Shown one piece after another: positions 2,422-64,000 of a stretch of 64,000 nt of DNA. The stretch is from assembly GCF_037975245.1 (NCBI RefSeq), contig NC_092572.1, forward strand, positions 12,278,269 to 12,342,268, written 5' to 3'. Position 1 is the first letter of the stretch. Each line of letters begins with the position of its first letter. The notes below the pieces were generated by a model. It saw only the letters and a list, made by a program, of their open reading frames with translations. It was not told the DNA's origin and did no database searches. Position numbers and translations under genes: made by a program. The stretch is from Apostichopus japonicus. Lineage: Eukaryota; Echinodermata; Holothuroidea; Aspidochirotida; Stichopodidae.

Positions 2422-4920
2422 AGTTTCAGACATTAGATAACCGTTTGGATATTTCCACCTCATTTACTGATATGCCATAACCATCTCGGGGTTTCTTTCA
2501 CATTTACAGCTGGTTTAGAACAATAATTTCTCTGCTATTCAAATTACTAACTAAATGAAACTTATATCAGCATACTGTATCTGCTATTCAAAATACTAAT
2601 TTGATACGCAGGGCAGATATAAAGCAAAACAGTGTTTTTATGGGGTAACACCATAAAAGGTGCAATTATCATGACAGAGGAGAAAGGAAAATGGGGCAAC
2701 CTATGGAAATTAGCATTTTACATTTTCTGTATTTCATGTTCAAAACAAATGTTGCCATTCCAGTTTTAAGTATGCAAATACTGGGATATGGGTGCCAAAG
2801 AACTACCGTTGTCAGTTTCTTGCAGGTAGAGAGGGGGGTGGGGGTGTTGGGGTGTGCAGGAAGGTTTGACCGAACAATACCCCGGACTTGCGAATGTATA
2901 AGTCATATACACTCTAAAAAATCTTTCTCTTAACTACTGTTATAGCTTGTTAAAACAACATATTAGCTTTCTGGTTTGGTCTTTATAATTCATGTCCCTA
3001 AATAGTTGAAGTGAAGCTAGGGATATCCCACGTTTTATCTTCACTCTCACATTTTAACTAAAATTCAAGATGGAGAGTGGAAAGAAGCCTCCAACTTCAA
3101 CTACAGATCAGTGGTGTATAACTGCGTGTTGGACACAATGGTTCACTGATAGTCACAGCACCTTGGGGCCGGTCGACCACTTGCGCTTCGAAACAACTCA
3201 GCTAATATTATCTCGAATAATATCGTTCTCGACCGAAATATCATTAAAATTCAAACACATACATGAACACGGTAACGATAAAGCTTGATATGCTGTATTT
3301 GTTATAAGCACACCAAAATAATAAGTTCCATGTTTGGAACATATGTGGGTCATTCCGCATCAAATCAACCAATTCTCTGAAAAGTTCCCATGTAACCCTC
3401 TCAGATTTAGATGAAATTTTATAAGAAATGATTGTGAGTATGGTCCAAATAAACACATACAAAAAAGTAAAATCATACTCCATGTTGTTTCCGAGATATG
3501 GCCCGTTGTAATTTAGTCAAAATGGCCATGTTGTACGTGAGCGATTCGCGAAAGTGACTTTTGTGATATTTTCCGATTTAAAGCTCAGAATTCACTCTTT
3601 GTACCATGTAGAGGGCTCAAATTTGGTATTCTGTCTGACCAATTGCCAAAATGCACGATGACCCAAAGTAGGCACTTTATTCAGCCGGAAAAAATTTGTG
3701 AATTTTTGGGTCACCCTGTACCAACATGAGGGGTCACATGAATTCGAAATTCCTTGGGTATAATCTATGGTTGCATGTCTACCAATATGCAATAATAAAT
3801 TCACCAATGCATTAATTAAGAAATGGCATGGGCCCAAAGTTGGATTCAGCCAGAAAAAGGTAAAAAGACCCGTCCCGTCTTGACCCTGGTTGACCCCGCG
3901 ATCAATTGAAAAGTTTCTTGAAATTTACACCAGATACACATACATTTTATATTTAAAACGAGTATTGTTATTCACACATTGATAGGTAGTATAGCGGATG
4001 GGATTACTCACTACCTATATTCATTTCAGTGTATACGTGCATAAGTTCTGGCCCTTTTACCTACCATTCAGTTTTTCTGTGAGGTGTGTGGTTGCTCTTT
4101 CTTCGTCATACGTCTCCCAGGCGTCGGTTGCCCTTGTCACCGACACACCCACCTGCAGATCCAGCAGTTCACATGTACATGTGTAATCAATCATTGATTT
4201 TGATCCAGTTCTATCAGTGTATTTGACTTCCATCTCTTCTTTGCGTAAAGTAGCCCGGAAGCCACAATGAAAGATTTCGTAACTATTTATAGATAAAATA
4301 TAGCATATTACGTAACTATTACGAGTTTATTATCGTATAGCATATATTACGGGTATCAACACTATCTTAGTATAATGACGTATAATTCATCATGATATTA
4401 CGTCACTCAAAGCATACAAATATACTGCACGATCATCCTATATGTGCATATAAGCGGGTGTGTTTGATGAGTGGGGGAAGGGTTGGGGAAGGGGTTGGGG
4501 AAGGAGTTGGGGAAGAAAAGGGGTATGGTGATGGGTGGTAATATGTCGGTATCTCTGCATATTGCAAATCAACATTACTGAATATGTTTCTTACAGTTTA
4601 CATGAACCATTAGCATATAGAGCAGTGCGATGTCGTAAGTTGTAATATGTAACAAGTGTCATTGCATTCAATTTCGTACCAAATATTAAGACCACATTTC
4701 TCATGCGATGCATGGTAAGCCTATCCGACCTCTCCCATCCTATATCGCTACGCCCACTGTTCACCTCTCCACCTATCCCTTTCCAAAACCAACCCTTCCC
4801 CACCCTTTCCTTCTCATACCAGCAAGTTCCCTCAGCGCCCGTACTTCATCCTTTTCTTCCATCACCAACCCACCCCACTTCCCATATCCCCTAACCGCTA
4901 TACTACAAATTTGGTGTAAA
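2422..4920. other. intergenic, no recognised gene
   Basis: No coding domain is recognised. A G-rich run with four GGTTGGGGAA-like units lies near 4475-4520, and 4720-4890 is pyrimidine-rich. Minus-strand frames at 3244-3483 and 3592-3837 have no recognisable similarity and no splice context. Confidence 0.45.
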
Positions 4921-7065
4921 TTATAATATAAACTTAGCAATTTTTTATTCCTATATTAGATTAAATTAAAAAATATGTATATATTCACTATTAGTGCAAA
5001 TAGAAATATCGCCAACTAGTTGGCATTTTATTCTCTCTATATCTAATTGTGAAATAAAATTGAGCCAACGAATTTTGAATTTAACAATATAATATCCTAA
5101 TATCACAAACTTCGCCAACTAGTTACGCGAATGTTTCATTCAACAATTAAAAATTCCAAATATATCTGGTAATTTTTTGAAACAATGCAGAATGTATGCT
5201 TAGGCTTAGTATGTTAGTGTGTGACACCCAAAACTTATGAACCTATGAGCGTCGCTCCCTTCAAGCAATCTTAGTTGACATTATCATAGGCGTAGGAGCC
5301 CAATTTAATTGGGGGGGGAGGGGGCTGTATACGACTTGCTCGAAAAATACAACCAAAATTTTTCGCGCGCTTCCGCGAGCGTTCAACGTATTAATGTGCA
5401 TATAATATAGGCATGCATCGGTTATTACATCGCATGCCAATAACATACAATCATTTGCCGTGTTATTAACCTACCATATTGGTTAGAATTATTGGGGAAG
5501 TCGTTACAATAATGATGATAATTATACCATCAGTTTAACCATTGAAAAACACATCGCAATTTTTTTTTTCAGTAGGTGCCCAAAAAATTCTCAGCATATT
5601 GCCCGAATTTCACCAAAAACTTTGGTTGGGGGGCTGCATCCCCCCCCCCAGCCCCCGCCTCCTACGCCTATGGACATTACTGCAAATGCAGTCTCTTATA
5701 TACATCAGTTAAATTAGTGTTTGCTGCTGTGAACGTGTGAAGATTATATTCCTGATAGTATAGGCAGTTGGGTGGCGTTCAACTGGATGATTCTCATTCA
5801 AATATTTCCCCCCAGTTGATGTTATAATTCACTGCCTTTCATATTAGTTTATAACAGGTATTAAATTGATGATCAAAATATTATACTATTGAGGTTTGAT
5901 CAGAGTTAGGTTTTCATTGAAATTACCTGCTGAAGGAAGACTAATATTATCATCTGGACAAGTTGAGACAACCCATGTTTACAAATTAGTACCTAATTCC
6001 CAACCACAACAGAGTACAGTATATTAAAGAGAAATTGATAATGGTTTACTAAGAGAAAAAACTCGCTGAGCTCCTTCAAAGTGGGTTGGAGTTGGACCGG
6101 TATCGTTACTGGTTCGAATTGTTAGATATCTGGATACTGGATTAGCAACATTTTTGAGTATTTATTGAAAATAATTGCCCATACACCTAGGGTAAGCCCC
6201 ACTATAAAACAAATATCTACAACACACTAACAGAAGCATTTTTTGTGCATGTAAAGCACCACACGTTTATAGGTCTACTAATATTCATCCTTTATGGCTT
6301 CTTAGGGAGGAAGATACCCCACAAGAAAAAATATCATAAAGTGCTAGTTGGCACAATTTTTATTCAATTCGCTTCGTACGCCTATGAATTTGTGATATTA
6401 GATTATTTCGAAATTGGTGATCATTTATTGAAATGTTGTTAAATAACAAAAGTCGCCAAATAGTAGTAAGCGAAATTTGTTGTTGTAGTAACACGTCTGG
6501 AAAGACTTTGTCGTATCGGAAGTATACGGCTTAAAACGAGTTTTTGGTTCGTTCTCAGCCCTAGCCTAACAAGACAAAGTAATTCTTCAAGCGTTTTAGT
6601 GTTAAATAAATTCAAAATTCGCCAACTAGTCGTCGATATTTTTAATTGTTGAATGAAAAATTCGCCAACAAGTTGGCGAAATTTTTATTTGTTGAATACA
6701 AAATTCGCGAACTGGTTGGCGTAGTTTGTGTTACTAGGTTATTATATTGTTAAAATCAAAATTCGCGAACTAATTTGCAAAATTTTCAATTTTTGAATGG
6801 AAAATTTGCCAACTAGTTGGCGATTTTATGTTATTATATTGTTAAAATCAAAATTCGTCAACTAGTTGGCGAACCTAAACACTTTAGTATAGAGAGGATA
6901 AACGCCAACTAGTTGGCTAAATTTTACTTCACACTATAGTATGAAGAGAGAAAAATTCGCCAATTACTTAGCGTTTTTTTCCTTCGCATTAATAGATAGA
7001 GGCCTACAATTCATTTGTTTTATTTCAATTTTATATAGGAGTAACAATATGCCAAATTTTAAAAC
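4921..7065. mobile_element. long inverted-repeat element with subterminal AACTAGTT palindromes
   Basis: The left arm (about 4921-5175) and right arm (about 6635-7065) are inverted copies of each other. The shared blocks include TTTTAATTGTTGAATGAAA, GTTTGTG.TA.TAGG.TATTATATTGTTAAA, a TTTCACA..AGTAT.(A)GAGAGA block and a TATAGGA.TAACAA-like outer end. Inside the arms the 14-bp palindrome GCCAACTAGTTGGC is exact at 5011-5024, 6808-6821 and 6904-6917. Decayed copies lie near 5113, 6621, 6664, 6705, 6754, 6858 and 6959. The right arm is longer because the unit has been multiplied there. The 1.4-kb centre has no recognised transposase and holds a younger hAT-like insertion. The outer boundaries are approximate, and I found no certain target duplication. 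A non-autonomous foldback-like DNA transposon is the likeliest reading. Confidence 0.65.
5285..5672. mobile_element. hAT-like MITE, 388 bp, with 8-bp target duplication
   Basis: The element opens with CATAGGCGTAGGAG and closes with the exact inverse CTCCTACGCCTATG. It is flanked by GACATTAT (5277-5284) and GACATTAC (5673-5680), a 7-of-8 match. Long G and C tracts lie just inside the two ends. Eight-base duplications and short inverted ends are the hallmark of hAT transposons. No transposase is encoded, so it would need an autonomous relative in trans. A related copy with an exact duplication is at 14372-14798. The element sits inside the older inverted-repeat element. Confidence 0.85.
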
Positions 7066-36705: not shown

Positions 36706-36736
36706 GGACGCACGGTTTGAAGTGTCAACTACAAGA

Positions 36737-48400: not shown

Positions 48401-51400
48401 ACCAGTTTCTGAGAGTCAAGGTAAGAACATACCACCCTAATAACGCCCACTCACCCTAATGATGCCCACTCACCCTCATAACGCCCACTTGATTTCATTT
48501 CATGACTATATTTATATATCTGTATTAGTTATATATGTAATATATCTCACTTTGTAATAGCATCACTAAGATATGGGTTTGTTCCATGGGGCAAAAGTCA
48601 ATCAAGTCCAAAAAGGGTGTAACTTTTGCTTGCCAGCCACCCCTGTTATTTCCAAGATTTTCCCGGATTCCATGTTTCGTCCTTGGATGAAAAATGTTTC
48701 ACTTTTACATGTTTGGCCTCCCTTTTCTAGAGTGGACAAACTTGATCCTAAAGCAGTAATTTTTTACAACTACTCATCCTCACAAAATACAGATTCTCAA
48801 AGTGTCACCCTTCCCTTTAAACATCCTCACAAAATACAGATCCTCAAAGTGTCACCCTTCCCTTTAAACATCCTCACAAAATACAGATCCTCAAAGTGTC
48901 ACCCTTCCCTTTAAACATCCTCACAAAATACAGATCTTCAAAGTGTCACCCTTTCTTTTAAACTTCCTCACACAATACAGATCCTCAAAGTGTCACCCTT
49001 TCTTTTAAACTTCCTCACACAATACAGATCCTCAAAGTGTCACCCTTCCCTTTAAGCATCCTCTCTATATACAGATTCTCAAAGTTTCACCCTCCCATTT
49101 AAATGTACATGGTAGGTGCATTCCTTGATGTCAACATGGGGTGGTGGAGGAGACGGGGTGGGGTGTTATATTATATCCGTGGATTTCCTGGAAAAAAATT
49201 GCTTACCTAATTGTTTGGTAGTTGCTGTTTTGATGAAGTAATATAATCTGTCCTGATTCTTGTATGTAAAGTAGGCAAGACCATTTATGGTGGGGGTAAA
49301 AACTCTACCTGTTGCATATTATCAAAGTAAGGAATATATATGTACAACCTATAACAGTTTTGTGTGGGTTTTATGACTAAAGTGACATGATAAGTTTCAC
49401 TGCTGGTCAGATTCATACCTATCTCGTGGATCTCATATCTCATTCTACCAATGTAAACTTAATGCTCATTGAAAAATAAACTTCTTCTCAATTTAGGTCC
49501 TCTATCTACAAAATCTTGTAATGACAACAGAGCTTTTACATCCGTAGCGCCAAAGCTTTGTAATACTTTGCCCCACAATATTTTCAACATACCTTCATTG
49601 ACTACCTTCAAATCTGAACTCAAAACTTATTTATTTAATTAATTAAATTTACGGTCTTCTTTGTATTTGTGTTGATTTGTTCATATTTTCTTAGTACATC
49701 GCTTAGGAACATTGTATGTCACACTTTATTAAAGTCTTATTATTATTAGTAGTACTATTATTGTTATTATTATAATTATTATTGTTGTTATTGTAATGAT
49801 TGTTGTTATTATTATTATTATCATCTGGACTCCTCCACTGCCTCAGTAATAAATAGTACACCACACTGACGACTACATGTCCGCCTTCCTTCAATGTGAA
49901 AGGGATTGCTATACACACCATCTCCATCGCTTCTTTAAATCTAGGTAGTACAGTCTCCGAGGATAAGATGTCAGAGGGGAAGAAGCTGATGTTGAAAGAA
50001 GATGAAGAGGTGACCCAGCTGATCGTCTGCAACAATTACCGAGAGGAACAGGAAAAGAAAAATATTCCGCTCGGTGAGTTTTACAATTCCATTCTGCGCT
50101 TATCCTCCACTTTGGGCTTGGTTTGTTGGGAGTGAAACATAGGAGTTGGTTATTTTGCCGAGTTTGCTTCAGGGTTGATATAGTTGCATCAATAGTCCTG
50201 ATTGATTTATGCAAAGTAGCTTAGGCTAGGTACATCTGCTACTCTGAAAGTGGTAGGTTTCATACGTTAATTTCTAATGCACATTTTTGAGGATTTTTAA
50301 ATATTCCACACCTGTCCCTTTTCACACAGCAAAACTATTAAGATAATTTCTGTAAAATGAACAACAGAAACTTGATGTGGCAAATTTTACACAAATTTGA
50401 AATGAGAAAAGACTGTTTTTTTCCAGAACAGGATTGGAACCAAACCAATGATGTCAGGTGTACAATTTTTCTGTTCTACCAACACCTATCCAGTCATTAA
50501 GTAGTGACAATCCCTATGCATCCATGTCATTACTGGAGGGGATGGGAGGGGGGGGGGCAGGCAGCCAAATTGCCTTGCATATTGTGTTACCGTGAATCAC
50601 ACCCCTTATTTCATTAGATACACCCCACAAAGCAGCAGGTTTAAGATTCCTATAGCAATTCGGCATTTCTTTAGCCTTTTAGCCTGAGCTCACTAGATGA
50701 TATCCCATCCCTTCTCAGCGTCTTCTCGTAACGCAATATTAACACAATCTTGTTGACAAGCCTGTTAAGCAACCAGCCCACTGGGATACATTTCACAGTA
50801 CTAATATATTGGACATTGCAATATAATTTTCTTCGCACGTCTGCTCTTGTACCAGATCCCCTTGAGTGGACTGCCAACCATACCATCAACTGGTTAACTT
50901 GGGCGGCGACCGAGTTTGGCATTAGCGCCTCTAAGGATGTTATAAATTCCTTCCGTATCACCGGCAGGGAGCTCTGCCAATTCACCAAAGAGGACTTCAT
51001 GAAGAAGATGCCAAAACAGCAGGGAGATTTATTCTGGACCCATCTACAAGTCTTAAATAAAGGTGAGATCCTACTATTAAAAATGTATGAAAAGATCAAT
51101 TTGTGGTAGGGTTTTTGTACAAAGAATCTTCAAAATTTTCAATACTTTGTGTTTTGAAAATCATATATTTTAGGTGTTGCTATGCTAATGTCCAACACAT
51201 AATTATCCTCTCCTTATTTAAAGTAAGTGATTCTACATGTATGGTAATGAGAGTATGTTAATCTATCTAGGGTTTGAATATTCATGTATCAGAAAATATT
51301 AAAGAGCCAATATACTATCCTCCTATGTAGTGCTTCAAAGAACTCGTACTGACAGCAGGAACATTTCCTAGCCTTTATCATGATAGACACAAGATATTTC

Positions 51401-54400
51401 CTACAGCTCATACTGTCAATATTAGTGCTCTGAAGTAGTCCAACCACACAGGGTGATATGAAATCAAGCCCTGAGACAGAACATCTCGGAATAAAACAAG
51501 TGTTGATAACTAATTGCAATGAAAAGGTTAATTTGGCTTAAAAAAAATATTATCGGCTATAATGAGTATTCTTTAATCTATGTGCAGGCAAATCATTCAT
51601 ATTCATCTATAGCTATGTAGTATACATATTCATGTATAAATATATTTGTATAGCTATAGAAGTTACATATATTATTACAGCTACCTGGAATACAGATCTA
51701 TTAAAAGAAAACCCATAGTGATCAAGCTGTTTGTTACCCTTTGTTTCTTTATCTAAATCTTTCTCTACCTCTGCAGGTAGAGAACCAGATATCACCATCT
51801 CTGCCCCCTCAGCACCTGTTGGTAAGTTGAAGCTTCTCGCTGGAGTTAATTACTTCCAGTCCTTCGCCAGGAAAATACCCAAAATTGCGTTCAAAACAGA
51901 TCGACTTGATTTTCAATCCAGTAATTGGTATATTGCCATTTACGAACCCTACTTATGTTTTCATCTCAATTATGTGTAGTGGCCATGGTTACCCACATGA
52001 TCTGGAAAAGTAGGCAAGAGGATAAACCTCTTTTACTAGGTCTGTAAAATGAGAAAAGAAAACCTCATTTGAACACTTCTTGTGATATGATAAGACTTAT
52101 ACGAGCAAGCTTTTTAAGAAGGAATTGAAATTAAACAGCATAAATGGAATCGATCGTGAAAAGTTATGAATCTCACCATAAAATTGGTTTCACATGTTTA
52201 CCACAGATTCTGCCAGATTAAGGGTGAATCTGTATTGATAATGTCGTTAGCGTGGTAGTGTACACTAAGTACAACATGATACCTTACAGGGACGTCCAAA
52301 AACCCAGGTTTGTCTCAGGGGACAATTCTGACATCCAGCTACATGTTTGGAATTCTTCCCTTTTCATTAAGATGAGAGTATATTATTCTTCACCCCCATA
52401 CTGCCTGCAATGTTACCACAGGTACCAGGACTGTATCACTCAGAGACCCTCACCACACCCCCTCCTCTCCCCTCATCAGGGTCTGGAACAATGTAATTAA
52501 TATTTGTCGTCATTAATTTCTTCCACTCTTTAGCTCCTCTCGTATTGAATGCTGGCCCAGCGGCCTTCCAGAACAGGCCTCGACTACCCAAGTCTCCCCG
52601 GACCCCAAAGTTGAACTCTACATCTGAAGACAGAATCCTTCCAGGAAACCGCACCGGTGAGTTTACCTGGCCGGTGTTTTAATAAGTTCCAGGAAGGTAT
52701 CATAAAGAGATGTTGAACTAATGTGGCTCTACAGTGATATGTTGCCAGTTACATATATCACACATTTGTGCAAATTATATGGTGTTGAATTTTGTCCATG
52801 TGACGGTAATTTGGAAGAAAAGTAAAATGGATTAAAATGATAAATGAAACTAGAACCAAGTAAAATTCCCTCCCACCCTCGAGAGCCGATTCTATCGGGA
52901 TGATAATATTTCTTTTAGACCTTCACAGTTGAATAAACAGAGCTCTGCGGCTAAACAAATATTCAAAAGTGTCAGGTTTTCCAGGATGAATCGAGTAACA
53001 TTCCCACCCCCCTCCCACCCTTGAGGGCCGATGCTATTGGAATAACAATACTTCTATCAGACCTTCACAGTTGAATAAACAGAGCTTTGCGGCTAAACAA
53101 ACATTCAAAAGTGTCAGGTTCTCCAGGATGAATCAACAAGAAGATTGTAACAGGAAAGTAAAGGTTTAAAACGAACGATTGCCATTATGACATCACAGAC
53201 AACCCACTGTGATCCACTCCAAAGAAGGATCGAGGGGTTTGCCAGCCAGAATAGGTTTTGATTCGATCAACCACATCTCGAATTACGGAAAAGATATTGA
53301 GACGGGTGGTTTTCAGCTAACAAGTGTGGAATAATTTTCTTTCCCATATAAGTGTCCAATTGTCCCCCACCGGAATATTCCCCTTAACGACACAAACTTG
53401 TCTTTTTACAGGCAATAACGGTCAAATTCAGCTGTGGCAATTCCTCTTGGAGTTACTGACCGACTGGGAATGTCTGGAGGTCATACAGTGGGTCGGAGAG
53501 GAGGGCGAGTTCAAACTGATGAACGCAGAGTTGGTCGCACAGAAATGGGGAGCACGGAAGAACAAGCACTCCATGAACTACGAAAAGCTCAGCAGAGCGT
53601 TAAGGTGGGTTTTGAAGGAGAGAGTAACCCTGAACAGAGTAAATCTAAATACACACATTTGTATGTTTTTGTTGGGGGGTACTTAATTTATATTTTTTTA
53701 ATATTTATTTTTTTTTTTTCCATTTCATGGGGAATCATAAAGAAATTCTCATTTGCAGGTTAGATATTGGTTGGACTTTGATACTGCAAATTCAAAGGTG
53801 ATGCTTCTTATCAATTTGGTCTGATGACATAAAACTTTCACAAATTTTGTTGCTCCTTGTTCCGTATGACTGACAGTGCTGAATTAACGTCCTCATGGAT
53901 CCTAAGGAACCATTATGCATTCCCCTTCACCCCCCCCCCCCCCCTCTGTGAACTTTGGCAGGCACAACCCAAACAGTAGAACACAGATAGTCTTGTCTGG
54001 AAGTGTTCCCATTGCAACACAACCATATACATTAGCACAAATTATTTCCCCAACCAGTTGCACATCTAGAATAGTTGGCACCTGAGGCGGATCCTTCCTT
54101 TGTCACCCCTGCAGGGCATGCCATCCTGGTTAGGGGTCTAAGGGGACAGGATGACCACTTTTTGTTTATGTAAGGTGGCTTAGATGCAAAATAGTGTTAT
54201 CTTTGGCAAAGCTTTAAATGGTGTTTTAAATTAAATTAAAAAAAAATTAAATAAAATGGTGTTTTAAATTATATGTTTAGGAATTTTCATTCTTTAGTGA
54301 GTTTTCATTTTTCCTATTGTTTGTTCTAAGTATTCATTTGAGGTGGGGGGGGGGGGCTGTGGCATAGCACCCTCCCCTGACTGGGCCCCTCGCTTTGTAC

Positions 54401-55992: not shown

Positions 55993-57040
55993 GTTGTATG
56001 GAGGGACAGTGTGAGCAGATGGATGGCCTGCATGTTGTGATCATAAATATTAATATTTGCTAGGTCTATCTAACCGAAGTCTCCCCTAGTCTAGGGTTAA
56101 CCGAGGAGGCATAAGCATATCAATCCTTTGTTTTTCTTGGAGATTTCATCTATCCATTACAACCTGCCATGCATGTTTCGGATTTGTAATCTTTTTTCCT
56201 ACTGATTATGACCATGAAATTCTGATAGGAGGGAATAGTCATCTTTATTCCATATCAACAAATTCATTATTTCATTAATTCTGATGCAGGGGTATGGGAA
56301 GGGGGGGGGTCGGTTGACAGAAAGAATTTCCTTTTCACTATCTCCTTTGAAAGTGTACAATTGATAACAATGGTGTTTATACATTAAATGCATGTACAAT
56401 GTAAATATACTTTTAACACATCTGCACAAGTTTGTGTTCCTTGGATTTTGTTTTTCTCTGCAAATGTTTTACACAATCCCAGGGCTTGCTCCAAGTCCCA
56501 CTCATAATAAATGTTGGCTCTGATCAAGCCGAAGCATTGAATGTGGGAGGGGTGGGGAGGGGAGTGAATGGTTGGCAACTTGGCTGTAGGATGTGACTAA
56601 TCATCCTCTCCTTGCAAAGAACATAATAATGTACAACAGTAGACAATGTAAAACAGTAGACGATGTACAACAGCAGGCTCTCTTTCTAGCAGTAATAATT
56701 ATTAAAGGTACTGAAAGTGTACAAATATTGATGATGTCCATACATTATATAGATATATATGTGCAATATATAAATAGACTTTCTGTTTTCACACAGATCT
56801 GGACATTGTTACAAAGGTACACATCTGAAACAGAATAATAATGAAATCGCTGGGTATCACAAACAATGTGTTGCCACTGTGTCACCAAGAACATATGGAG
56901 CAAAATTACTCTACGTTCGAATAAAAACCCATTCTTACAAATTCCTAGTGACAGTTAAATAAAAAATTTGGTGGCCTTTTTAGAAGAGTGCAAAATGAGT
57001 ACTGTGATAAATTGACTACTGTGAAGAGGAGAAGTGTTAC
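55993..57040. other. convergent spacer, no recognised gene
   Basis: Between the 3' ends of GABPA and the coiled-coil gene. Holds a triplicated ACAATGTA/ACAGTAGAC-like word (56630-56670) and an AATAAA at 56920-56925. No gene is seen. Confidence 0.45.
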
Positions 57041-57051
57041 ATATGAAGTAT

Positions 57052-57482
57052 TATCAGTCATATGAAGTATCATCTCTCATGAGTATCATCACTAATATGA
57101 TGTATCATCACTCATGTGATGTATCATCTCTCATGAAGTATCATCACTCATATGAAGTATCATCAGTCATATGAAGTAACATCACTCATATGACGTATCA
57201 TCTCTCATGAAGTATCATCACTCATATGAAGTATCATCTCTCTTAGAGTATCATCACTAAAGTGATGTATCATCAGTCATGTGATGTATCATTACTCATA
57301 TGATGTATCATCTCTCATGAAGTATCATCACTCATATGAAGTATCATCAGTCATATGAAGTTACATCACTCATATGACGTATCATCTCTCATGAAGTATC
57401 ATCACTCATATGTAGTATCATCTCTCATGAAGTATCATCATTCATATGAAGTATCATTAATTCACTAATGTGATGTATCATA
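57052..57482 (+). repeat. TCATATGAAGTATCATCAC minisatellite
   Basis: About 430 bp of units of roughly 16-20 bp built from TATGAAGTATCATCACTCA and a variant with TCTCTCATGAAG. The two variants alternate in a higher-order pattern, and a stretch of about 150 bp (57112-57235) is largely repeated at 57300-57420. It lies in the convergent spacer. Confidence 0.9.
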
Positions 57483-59635: not shown

Positions 59636-62600
59636 CTAACCTTTGGGGTTCTTGTAAAAGACACAGTTGTTAGCACAGGTGTCTGGATTACAATCCCAAG
59701 CGGTAACACCGCATGGACAGAGAGGGGGTAAGGCCACACCTTGCTGGTCCATCTTCTCCTTCATCTGTGCTCTGAGAGCTTGAATGTATCTGCGAAAAAA
59801 GACAGAAACAAGACAATACTGCTGTTACTGTCTTGTATAGTGGTCTTCTATAGGTCTTCTATATTGTCCACCAAAAGACGAATAATGGTCACTTATAGTC
59901 AAACATCGGCAGAGCGCTTTCCTTTCATCGTCAAAGAATTAAATAAAATGTTTTAAACATCAACTGTAGGCACATCACTGTGTGGATATTATCTGAGAGG
60001 CCAGAAGCTCTAGGAAGGACAAAACACTTCAAAGAAATTTAGTGATTTTATCAGAGATGTATTAAATAGGTCACTTCATGGTCCACTCAAGTCAGTATAC
60101 ATGGTTTTTCTGACTTGAGTCTGGTCATCAGATCCGTATCTTTCGGTTAAGCTTAAGTTGCATATCAAAACTAAAGGTGAAGTTAGTTGCTATTTTCAAG
60201 GTAATGCTACTAAATTTGCCAGTGTCGGAACCATTTCGAAATGGAATTAGTTACTGCTTTTGTAAAGGCCTGTAGCCATGGATGTTAATTCGAGGGGAAC
60301 CAACAATTTAAGAGAGGGCTCCGACAATGTCAGGAGTGGCACCAACAATTCAAGGAGAAGCACAATACTCATGTTCTGTAGTCTCCAAGGGGAGGGAGGG
60401 AGGGTGGTCCAGGCTAGCTATGGATCACCTCTGAAGTTTGTTTTACAGGGGGAAAAAAGGTACTATTTGCTTGTAACCGACAATGAGTATAGGCTATCTG
60501 AAGACCAAAGCAACTATACAGTTTTATTCCCCTTCATAATTTTTAAAAAAAAAATTACAAACAACGGTTGAACAAAAGTTTTACACTACAGTTAGATGGT
60601 ATTTATGTACAGCTCATTCTAAGAACCATCCGTGAATAAATAAACTCAAGTTACCTCTTTGTTTCTCTGTTTTTGGTTTCCTTCCTCTTCTGTCTCTCCA
60701 TCTGAGCTTCCACCTCTCTCTCGTCTTCTCTACGTATTCTCGTCAGCTCAGCTTCGGTGAGACCCGTCTCTGGATCTTTGGGCTCTGTGGCTTGCTCTGA
60801 TTGCCTCTCTATAGCTAACCTCTCCTCTTCTTTGACTTTCTTCAATCTGAACAGAAAATCATGGCGGAACCAAAACGTTAGGAGGATATCGATTACTTCA
60901 TTATTTTTATATTTTTTTTATTAATGATGTTAATGAGTATATGTGACTATTTATAATAACTATATGGCAGTATAACCCAGCCTATCAGATAACATCGATG
61001 TTCGATAAAAAAGAACTGTTTTCACGCTTTCTGTTTGTAAACCTCTTACTACATGGCATGACTTAATCGTCTCCAGTGATATTTCTCGTACGACAAGAGC
61101 AACAGCTCTTTGGTGCTTTTTTTAAGGGACGGAATATCTTCCTTTCTATCAGACGAGAAGGGGAACCACCAACCAGGTAAATTCACTACCGACTGTAGGT
61201 TTTCTATAGCTGCACATTGATGAATCAACTTGACAGACACACAGAGAGACACATCGACAGACACTGGTGACAGGAACTAATTATTTAAAACAGCATTGCT
61301 ATTTTATGCAGCCACAAAATTATCATTCACAAGTTACAGAATTGTTAATACTTCTCAACAAAACTGTATGATATCCAACTTGTTCTTTTTTTCGGGACCC
61401 TCTAGATAAATTGCGGGAATCCCGCAATCGCGCGTCCAAATGTGAACATTGGTTGTACAGAAACTGGTTTTTTTGTACCAAACACAGGCTTGAAAACTAT
61501 GGAAAAAAAAAAAGTCCATTGTTTTTAAAAACAAACATCAACTTTAGTGCCTGGCCAGCTCTTCTTAGTTTGGTGCAAAGTTCAGTTTCCATAGTTTCTG
61601 TAACAGTTCTTAGATATTGTGTGATTAAAGTTTGTCATAAATTAATATAACTCCGTGTACAAACACTGCTACACATCTTTGCATATGTTTTACAGCAATC
61701 AGCAACAACTCGCATAGCATTCTGCTAGATACAAAACCCGGACACACTACCCCTTTGCTTACCTCTGGATACGTTTGCTGTGCTGCTTCTTACGTCGGTT
61801 CTCCTGGACGTTTTCTCGCTCCATGTCCATAAACAATCTCCGGTACATCAACACCTCTTCCCTGACCTGCCTCTTCTTCTCCTCCACGATGACGCCCGGC
61901 TTCACGTCCACCGCCTCCCTCACTTTTTTCCTCCTTCCGTCTTTCTTTCTCGACCTCTCGTTCACTTTTCTGTCTCTGTCTTGCCTTAAATTATTCTCGT
62001 AGCCTGGATGAACGTCGTCGTCGGCTGTAACCACGGGATCGAAAGTGACCGTCTTTGACCTCTGACCTCGGGTCTGAGTCTGCGATGGAGCTGGTTCTGA
62101 CATTTGTCCTATGGTTGTAGTGTCAGAGGTCACAGGTTCACAGGGGACCTCATCGCAAAGAAGTTTGACACCATCGCTCACTTGGTATAGCGGTTGATCT
62201 CTTAATATGTCAGTGTATGGATTTTCCTTGCCATGCAAAAGCTCTCTTTCCATTTGAGGTATTGCTTCCTGCACGGGCATTCCTTCCTGTGAGAAGAGAG
62301 AAACAGAAATGTTTCTGCAGGAATACTTGATTATATAAAATGAAAATGAGAACATGAAACAAATATGTTGAAAAGTAAATGAAAATGTTTGGTCTTATCT
62401 GCAGATATGGACCCGGAATCCTAAAGGATATACAATATTTCTGCTGAATGTTGCTTTAAAGGAGCTTAGTATATGTTCTATTTTGATATTGTCAATGTTA
62501 TGTGTACCTCTTAGTATAACTAAGTAACCTGAGTGAAATTGAGAGTACTACTTTAAAGGAGCTTATCATAGGTTCTGTTTTGATACTGCCAATGTTTTCT

Positions 62601-64000
62601 TACCTCTTAGTAAAACTCACTGAACTGACTGAAACTTTGGAGTACTGCTTTAAAGGAGCTTATCATATGTAATGTTTTGATACTGTCAATGTTTTCTATA
62701 CCTCTTAGTATAACTCACTGAAGTGACTGAAACTTTGGAGTACTGCTTTAAAGGAGCTATCACAGGTTCTGTTTTTTCTGTATAAATACCTAATGCAAAA
62801 TCTGCTGCAAAAATAGTAGTTCACCTGAAATTGCTGCAAAGACAAATCATCCCTCGTAAAGGACTTGCCCCATCGTCCACCTGGAACGTTTTCCTAAAAT
62901 AAAATAAATGAAAATATATTAAAAAGGAAACAAGGGATACATACTATCATAGAAGTGGATGGGACTCCCACTTAGCAATTGGGTTTGAGGATTTGATTAT
63001 TGAATGTTAAGCTAAGAAGCCTAGAAAATACTGCCTACATCAATTTAAAGAGAAAACATGATTAAAAAGTTTAGGTTGATTTTGCAATGAAATGATTATT
63101 AGTCACTTCTTCTTTCCTCAAATTAATGTTGAGAATCACCATGGAACATGGTGAAATTGAATCACGTTCAATTTTACGGTTGTCACATGAAACCAACAAG
63201 ACTGGGATACAGTCCGTACCGTCTCATTCAAGTACTAAAGCAAATCTGTCCAAAGTCTCTGTGATTCAAAAACTCACCCTGGTGGTAACACGAGGGAGGT
63301 TATTATTGGATTTGGTCTCGAGTTCTTACTTAGTGGAATTAATCAAACCCTGAACAATATTACTACAGTATTAATAAACTGATTACTTCATAAAACAGAC
63401 CACATATGGAATGGAGAAATTTCCCAGTAAGCTTTGACGTGCCTGTCGAGATTGAAAGCCTGCCAATTGTAATACCAACACTCTCTATCGGGTTAAATTT
63501 TAAATTGTCTCAAACGCGATTTCTTAAACGGGTTCTTTATAAATGGAGTGTGAAGAAAAGACTAACTGAACACCTCCAAGGGTCGATAGATGACTTTTAA
63601 TTCAAGGGTAATATCTTTAGGGCAGCTATCAGGGACTAAACAGAAATCAAATGTAATACATTCTTCTCTGCTTTGTCGAAACGGATATTGGCTCTGTCAT
63701 TTGTAACTTGAGACTAATTTTGTAATAACACAGAGAGCTTTAGAGCAAAAGAGACAGGCTTCATTTACCTTTTCTGGTACGAGTTTGCGGCTAGCCAGTT
63801 CACTCTTCGCCATCTTGATCATGTTTCCTATTCGTTGAGACAGATGGTTCAACTGGTGAGGATCAAACACCTTCTCTACCCCTTCCCGATCTCCTCCTCC
63901 TTCATATTGACTCTCCCCGTCCGAGCTTATCTGGATGTTCCGTTCACGGTAGATTTCCTGTCCCTTGGGTCTGCTGGTCACTCCCATCTCCCCTCTGTGG
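59636..64000 (-). CDS. coiled-coil protein with Cys-rich C-terminus, CCDC15-like (partial)
   Basis: Five exons in the window, read right to left: 64000-63769 (open beyond the edge), 62894-62826, 62286-61763, 60846-60655 and 59789-59636. Phases are consistent and borders are GT...AG. From the first visible Met (63987) this gives 385 residues to the stop, but the true N-terminus lies outside. The protein is hydrophilic: a DPHQLNHLSQRIGNMIKMAK helix; a GGRWGKSFTRDDL motif; a Thr/Asp-rich linker; then about 150 residues of Arg/Lys/Glu-rich coiled coil (VREEVLMYRRLFMDMEREN). It ends YIQALRAQMKEKM then LPPLCPCGVTAWDCNPDTCA and NNCVFYKNPKG. That closing Cys motif recalls CCDC15 of vertebrates, a centriole/cilium-linked protein, but this is from memory and tentative. 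AATAAA on the minus strand lies about 76 bp past the stop. Confidence 0.75.
62454..62780 (+). repeat. 97-bp minisatellite, 3.3 copies, in coiled-coil gene intron
   Basis: Units beginning CTTTAAAGGAGCTTATCATA recur at 62454, 62551, 62648 and 62745 (97 bp each). They share TTTTGATACTGTCAATGTTTT and CCTCTTAGTATAACTCACTG-like blocks. They lie between the exons at 61763-62286 and 62826-62894. Confidence 0.88.

Follow-up and report, generated by a model that had tools for sequence, protein, structure and literature searches.

Palindrome arrays at the locus

The window, i.e., the whole 64-kb stretch analysed here (C12:12278269-12342268; C and L numbers denote contigs and extracted loci, respectively), contains an inverted-repeat element whose two arms are arrays of a short palindrome. 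The left boundary of the element lies at 4912/4913 (TGGTGTAAATTATAATATA), and the homology on the right stops at ~7058, where the end was aligned by eye to the right ends of copies on C9 and C10 and locally to the left end. The sequence-only reading, which had set the limits at 4921..7065, was thus close on the right and needs to be shifted on the left. The features of the locus are as follows:

4912..7058, no strand assigned: whole element between its outer ends, probably a non-autonomous foldback-type element; left end at the same base as in the C9 and C2 copies
4912..4929, plus strand: left terminal stretch of GGGTGTAAATTATAATAT type beyond the inverted repeat, with T as its first base in the window; also present at C9 and C2
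4930..4980, plus strand: left terminal inverted repeat, pairing with 7009-7059 in local alignment
5011..5127, plus strand: left-arm palindromes, 5011-5024 exact and 5114-5127 with three mismatches
5151..6345, no strand assigned: nested hAT remnant (putative passenger), left end missing; pieces match the hAT copies L060, L061 and L068 at 74-81%
5285..5672, no strand assigned: 388-bp MITE in the hAT remnant, with ends CATAGGCGTAGGAG... and a near-flush direct repeat GACATTA
6344..6478, plus strand: inner part of the right-arm array, reduced to decayed pieces at 6344-6367, 6389-6407 and 6433-6478, with short matches to the array units of C9, C10 and C2
6613..6972, plus strand: right-arm array of eight palindromes, starting at 6621, 6664, 6707, 6765, 6808, 6857, 6904 and 6959
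7009..7059, minus strand: right terminal inverted repeat, from local alignment

The 14-letter palindrome GCCAACTAGTTGGC matches the 64-kb window 11 times with up to three mismatches, and 10 of these 11 matches fall within 5011-6972; in 100 shuffles of the whole window, the number of matches averaged 1.80 and never exceeded 7. The ten comprise three exact copies, two with one mismatch, two with two and three with three, which bears out the earlier description of inverted arms carrying three exact and about seven decayed palindromes. The inversion of the arms is evident from 5069-5124, which is 89% complementary to 6710-6765, and from the extracted locus (L008), in which 2274-2424 pairs with 4096-3949 (76.6%, E 6.5e-25).

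The array palindrome CGCCAACTAGTTGGCG has opposite orientations in the two arms, and in the best-preserved stretches its copies are alternately 43 and ~58 bases apart. Counted between 16-base palindromes, the most frequent spacer length over all copies is 27 bases (20 of 56), followed by 42 bases (11 of 56); where the two alternate, they form a higher-order unit of ~101 bases with two palindromes per unit. The spacers in the right-arm array of the window are 27, 27, 42, 27, 33, 31 and 39 bases, while the outermost palindromes carry a third, GAGAGAAAA-type spacer. A stretch at 6489-6616 (ACACGTCTGGAAAGACTTTG...) separates the inner from the outer part of the right array; pieces of it recur twice to the left of the array in one C10 copy (L007, 3780-3867 and 4150-4235), and its first part only is found in C9.

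Elsewhere in the window, open frames resembling animal genes were noted by eye (Ets-type at 53321, LRR-Ig at 36707), together with unrelated tandem arrays at 57040-57457 (periods 19/74), 48775-49103 (period 47) and 62452-62775 (97 bases).

Related copies, outer ends and target duplication

Across the 671.6 Mb of genome searched (35 contigs), the exact palindrome occurs 15 times, all at four loci: C9 (5 copies), C10:13.266 Mb (4), C10:13.325 Mb (3) and the window (3). Probes made from the right arm of the window and from a C10 array each gave seven scored candidates and converged on one set of five loci, which adds C2:28.368 Mb to these four. Since the surroundings of the two C10 loci match in long pieces at 87-95%, these represent one insertion inside a segmental duplication, leaving four independent insertions among the five loci; both counts are lower bounds set by the array and palindrome searches. 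The duplicated C10 segments (L009/L006/L011 and L010/L007/L012) lie ~59 kb apart and carry one-armed copies of the element. Just to the right of one of these, at L006:5411-6462, there are open frames which by eye resemble a LINE-type reverse transcriptase.

The C9 copy (L005:3046-5469, C9:996045-998468; 2424 bp) possesses both arms and is the only one with two intact ends; the right end is lost at C2, and the left ends are lost in both C10 copies. An 8-bp duplication, GAAATCTG, abuts both ends of the C9 copy without a gap. The two ends were set independently of this duplication, the left one by homology with the window and C2, and the right one by a 50-base, 80% match between L005 and L006 that stops at L005:5468. 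By our own estimate, which allows a few offsets per end, the chance of such an 8-bp repeat is ~4e-4. The window, C9 and C2 copies all begin on the left at one identical base, with (G)GGTGTAAATTATA, and the right end, ...AATTATCC, is common to the C9 and C10 copies; the outer termini thus read GGGTGTAAATTATA.../...AATTATCCT, with the ends also given as AGGATAATTTAGC and AGGATAATTTAGCAATTTTTACTCC. As the inverted repeat proper begins 16 bases inside the left end and three bases inside the right end at C9, the termini are asymmetric. Six comparisons of 1-kb flanks (left of the window, C9 and C2; right of the window, C9 and one C10 copy) gave no match. A target duplication is seen at one of the five loci, with 8 bp at C9; in the window copy, the last bases differ and none is recognisable.

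Common ends, one flush duplication and unrelated flanks show that the unit was mobile by its outer ends. The sequence-only reading had made its proposal hinge on the arms being found together at another place; they are so found at C9, within an 8-bp target duplication and not as a duplicated satellite.

Further copies were sought through the terminal sequences. The terminal motif TTAGCAATTTTTNNTCCTATAT is present at 19 places with up to two mismatches, compared with nine for a reversed-pattern control; it is exact at two of them, the left end of C2 and the right end of C9, and the other 17, all with two mismatches, match the C9 element over at most 30 bases and were rejected as copies. For the left end GGGTGTAAATTATANTATA, the 123 places with up to two mismatches show no excess over the control (188). 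Nine of them have no or one mismatch, of which three are the known copies; four of the other six (two at C2 6.397/6.399 Mb, one at C12 1.49 Mb and one on C19), compared as three loci of 1.2-2.5 kb, were discarded as copies, with matches to the element of at most 28 bases and a sole inverted pair of 28 bases at 71%, and the remaining two (C4:24.2 Mb and C12:1.90 Mb) were left out of the comparison.

Array size differs between copies in both arms. Within the mismatch limit, the left arm holds two palindromes in the window, five in C9 and nine in C2, and the right arm eight in the window, ten in C9, and 13 and 16 in the two C10 copies. Interspersed with these are units decayed further, e.g., in C2, where several read AACTATAGTT. 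The earlier suggestion that the palindromes had multiplied in the right arm agrees with the window (8 right, 2 left) and C9 (10 and 5); in C2, the left arm is the largest left arm among the three copies (nine), and the right one is lost.

Selection on the palindrome was examined through conservation and compensatory change, and both tests were null. In the 27-base spacer class, conservation was 0.92 and 0.90 in the palindromes versus 0.88 in the spacer (p 0.18, n 20), and in the 42-base class 0.90 and 0.91 versus 0.90 (p 0.49, n 11); compensatory changes accounted for two of five double changes against a shuffled mean of 1.53 (p 0.46), i.e., no excess, and the paired fraction over 63 palindromes was 0.804 compared with 0.803 in shuffles, both tests being weak in that copies were chosen by a mismatch limit that misses strongly decayed ones and that two of the 63 rows, C2 units into which a TA is inserted, are out of register. 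When all units are oriented as in the right arm, the better conserved half-site is the right one, AGTTGGCG (0.86-1.00 per position versus 0.63-0.94 in the left half), a suggestive asymmetry that is descriptive only and that the two rows out of register inflate slightly. In dead copies, such null results neither prove nor exclude a past binding role. Since the palindromes are not significantly above the spacers and compensatory change is not in excess, transposase binding is a role that we infer, and the palindromes are plausible as putative transposase binding sites, as the sequence-only reading had proposed, by analogy with Galileo (PMC3688188, in the part available).

The same reading had seen no transposase, and this holds more widely: none that could serve the outer ends was found at the five loci reached by the palindrome, array and left-end searches. 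In the stretches to the left of the C10 arrays, frames reach at most 120 aa (L006) and 135 aa (L007), and these stretches, short pieces aside, are not collinear with the other interiors; a coding interior at these places was rejected on frame length and collinearity.

The hAT sequence between the arms

The interiors of the window and C9 copies match at 82% across an alignment of 1253 bases that takes in part of the right array, and at 88% over 5673-6527 of the window. Probing the genome with 5660-6590 of the window returned 26 matches, including the window and C9, the next longest being at C10:16.45 Mb and C1:12.2 Mb. These are two hAT copies, 96-97% alike and ~6.6 kb long: the C10 element of 6577 bp (C10:16453332-16459908; L060 with L062/L064) and the C1 element (L061 with L063). 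Read by eye, the C10 element has the left end CAGCGACGTAGCCAGG and the C1 element CAGTGACATAGCCAGG, both have CAAGGACGTAGCCAGG on the right, and each lies between 8-bp duplications, GCAATGTG and GCCCAATC, respectively. Two overlapping open frames of the C10 hAT encode PF14291 (E 7e-15) and PF05699 (E 9e-10); an opposite-strand frame of 103 aa at L060:2809-3120 matched no Pfam family at E values up to 1. The one locus fetched among the remaining probe matches, L068 (C9:15.4 Mb), is a shortened copy of the same hAT.

The hAT left end, CAGGGAC[A/G]TATCCAGGAATTTG, lies inside the C9 and C2 copies, after the left array and at the same junction, where ~40 similar bases precede it. This shared junction argues that a single hAT insertion preceded the spread of the composite, and most of the interior of the element can accordingly be read, from sequence comparison, as a passenger hAT. 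For the same reason, namely that the outer element encloses their own left end in C9 and C2, the hAT elements at C10:16.45 Mb and C1:12.2 Mb were ruled out as the autonomous partner of the outer element.

The 388-bp MITE is nested in the remnant, and C9 shows its site without the MITE. Its family is very abundant, with 3498 first-look candidates; among the 40 that were scored, the 39 others are 84-88% identical. At C9, a 133-base inverted copy of the hAT remnant (L005:3431-3563 versus 4582-4709, 81%) adjoins the left arm, as if copied back in a repair event.

Affinities and proposed history

The closest known systems are Tm1, Tetris and Galileo. Tm1, of the Phantom subclass of Mutator/Foldback elements in root-knot nematodes, has inverted repeats of one to nine units of a ~14-bp motif, unequal between the ends, and shares with other Mutator-like elements differing short motifs outside the inverted repeat and hence asymmetric termini; like the present element, it is low-copy, decaying and mostly non-autonomous (PMC3169594, in the part available). 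However, its target duplication is 9 bp, as opposed to 8 bp, seen once, here; its motif differs in sequence and is not called a palindrome in that part of the paper; and it has a transposase-bearing copy, whereas none was found for the present element (PMC3169594). Tetris, a foldback element of Drosophila virilis, is likewise non-autonomous with long inverted repeats and internal tandem repeats of varying number; three of its copies are structurally complete, its duplications measure 8-10 bp, and no transposase was found for it either (PMC4079207, portions available). In contrast to the present ~101-bp unit with two palindromes, the Tetris unit is ~220 bp and its arms are longer, and Tetris seeded satellites, whereas our array probes found no further array (PMC4079207).

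The TU elements of sea urchins are foldback elements that carry tandem repeats in their outer inverted repeat. Sea-urchin foldbacks are also mentioned in the available portions of PMC4079207. Tc1/mariner elements make target duplications of 2 bp, and this, compared with the 8 bp at C9, separates the present element from that group. Palindromes within long inverted repeats have been described for one of its members, Mcmar of Meloidogyne chitwoodi (as reported in the available part of PMC3169594).

The full explanation that we favour, and hold to be likely, is that the window contains a non-autonomous, foldback-type DNA transposon with a cut-and-paste mode of movement, in decayed form. Both arms within an 8-bp duplication at C9, together with the left end at a third unrelated site, identify it as a transposon, and inverted repeats with tandem repeats of variable number are the foldback feature. 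A hAT element inserted between the arms before the copies parted, and the composite subsequently reached at least three unrelated places, leaving its 8-bp duplication at the sole copy with two intact ends. A transposase supplied in trans, and since lost or diverged beyond detection, may have bound the repeated sites of both arms, brought the ends into synapsis and cleaved outside the arrays. Unit number would rise or fall by unequal exchange or replication slippage, which would account for the unequal arms. By analogy with Tm1 and Tetris, which make Mutator the leading guess, the lost transposase was most likely, on weak grounds, Mutator/Phantom-like, with a P-type enzyme next; target duplications of Mutator elements range over 8-10 bp and are commonly 9 bp.

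That the outer element belongs to the P-element/Galileo group, with long, internally repeated inverted repeats offering several THAP-domain sites, is a possible but distinctly less probable reading. P elements make 8-bp duplications; the terminal bases differ, no P-type transposase is linked to the ends of the element, and the sequence of Galileo is not known to be related to it. The repeated arms of Galileo, a member of the P superfamily, contain several transposase (THAP) sites demonstrated experimentally, by footprint and gel shift, which is the mechanism proposed for the present element, yet its P-type transposase is known and its sites are not described as palindromes in the available part of the paper (PMC3688188).

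An origin of the outer element as a hAT derivative, moved by the transposase of the C10/C1 hAT and with the interior hAT as its own body, appears unlikely. The 8-bp duplication, seen at one copy (C9), is a hAT feature, and the interior is largely hAT sequence with pieces collinear with L060/L061; however, in C9 and C2 the hAT-type left end (CAGCGACGTAGCCAGG / CAGTGACATAGCCAGG) is internal to the element, and the 12.5 kb (C10) and 8.0 kb (C1) around the hAT copies lack any palindrome even with four mismatches allowed. The outer ends GGGTGTAAATTATA / AGGATAATTTAGC are unlike CAGCGACGTAGCCAGG and its relatives and lack CA(G/A)-type termini, so that hAT membership of these ends is unsupported. Slightly less probable still is that the arrays, with perfect 14-16-bp palindromes at 43/58-base spacing, are the platform of an undescribed dimeric transposase from a lineage outside Mutator and P.

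A local inverted duplication of a satellite is very improbable: the arrays are tandem with a variable unit number and the C10 pair arose from one locus by segmental duplication, but the left end lies at the same base at three unrelated sites and a flush 8-bp duplication is present at C9. Equally remote is an origin as a Helitron or Helentron in which satellite-like repeats accompany subterminal palindromes. Oyster Helentron relatives are reported to carry satellite-like arrays (PMC7492417, in the part available); against this reading stand the 8-bp duplication at C9 and the inverted terminal repeats found here. Rolling-circle elements are not known to make such a target duplication.

The foldback-type transposon favoured above belongs to an old, very low-copy, gene-less family, and its copy in the window is ordinary debris. 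The sequence-only reading had regarded it as a candidate undescribed element; the 14-mer appears in no paper of the literature searched, while the architecture is already known, so that we regard it as a new low-copy family of a known kind, with novelty judged from published papers and a name possibly existing elsewhere. The general picture of DNA transposons is unchanged; nevertheless, a family is added to the foldback-type transposons in an animal genome. The differences in array size fit arrays that expand and contract after insertion or between moves, and the idea that the palindrome serves in binding is simple and open to test. The family also offers a clean composite history, in which one transposon, the hAT, was taken up as cargo by another and carried along.
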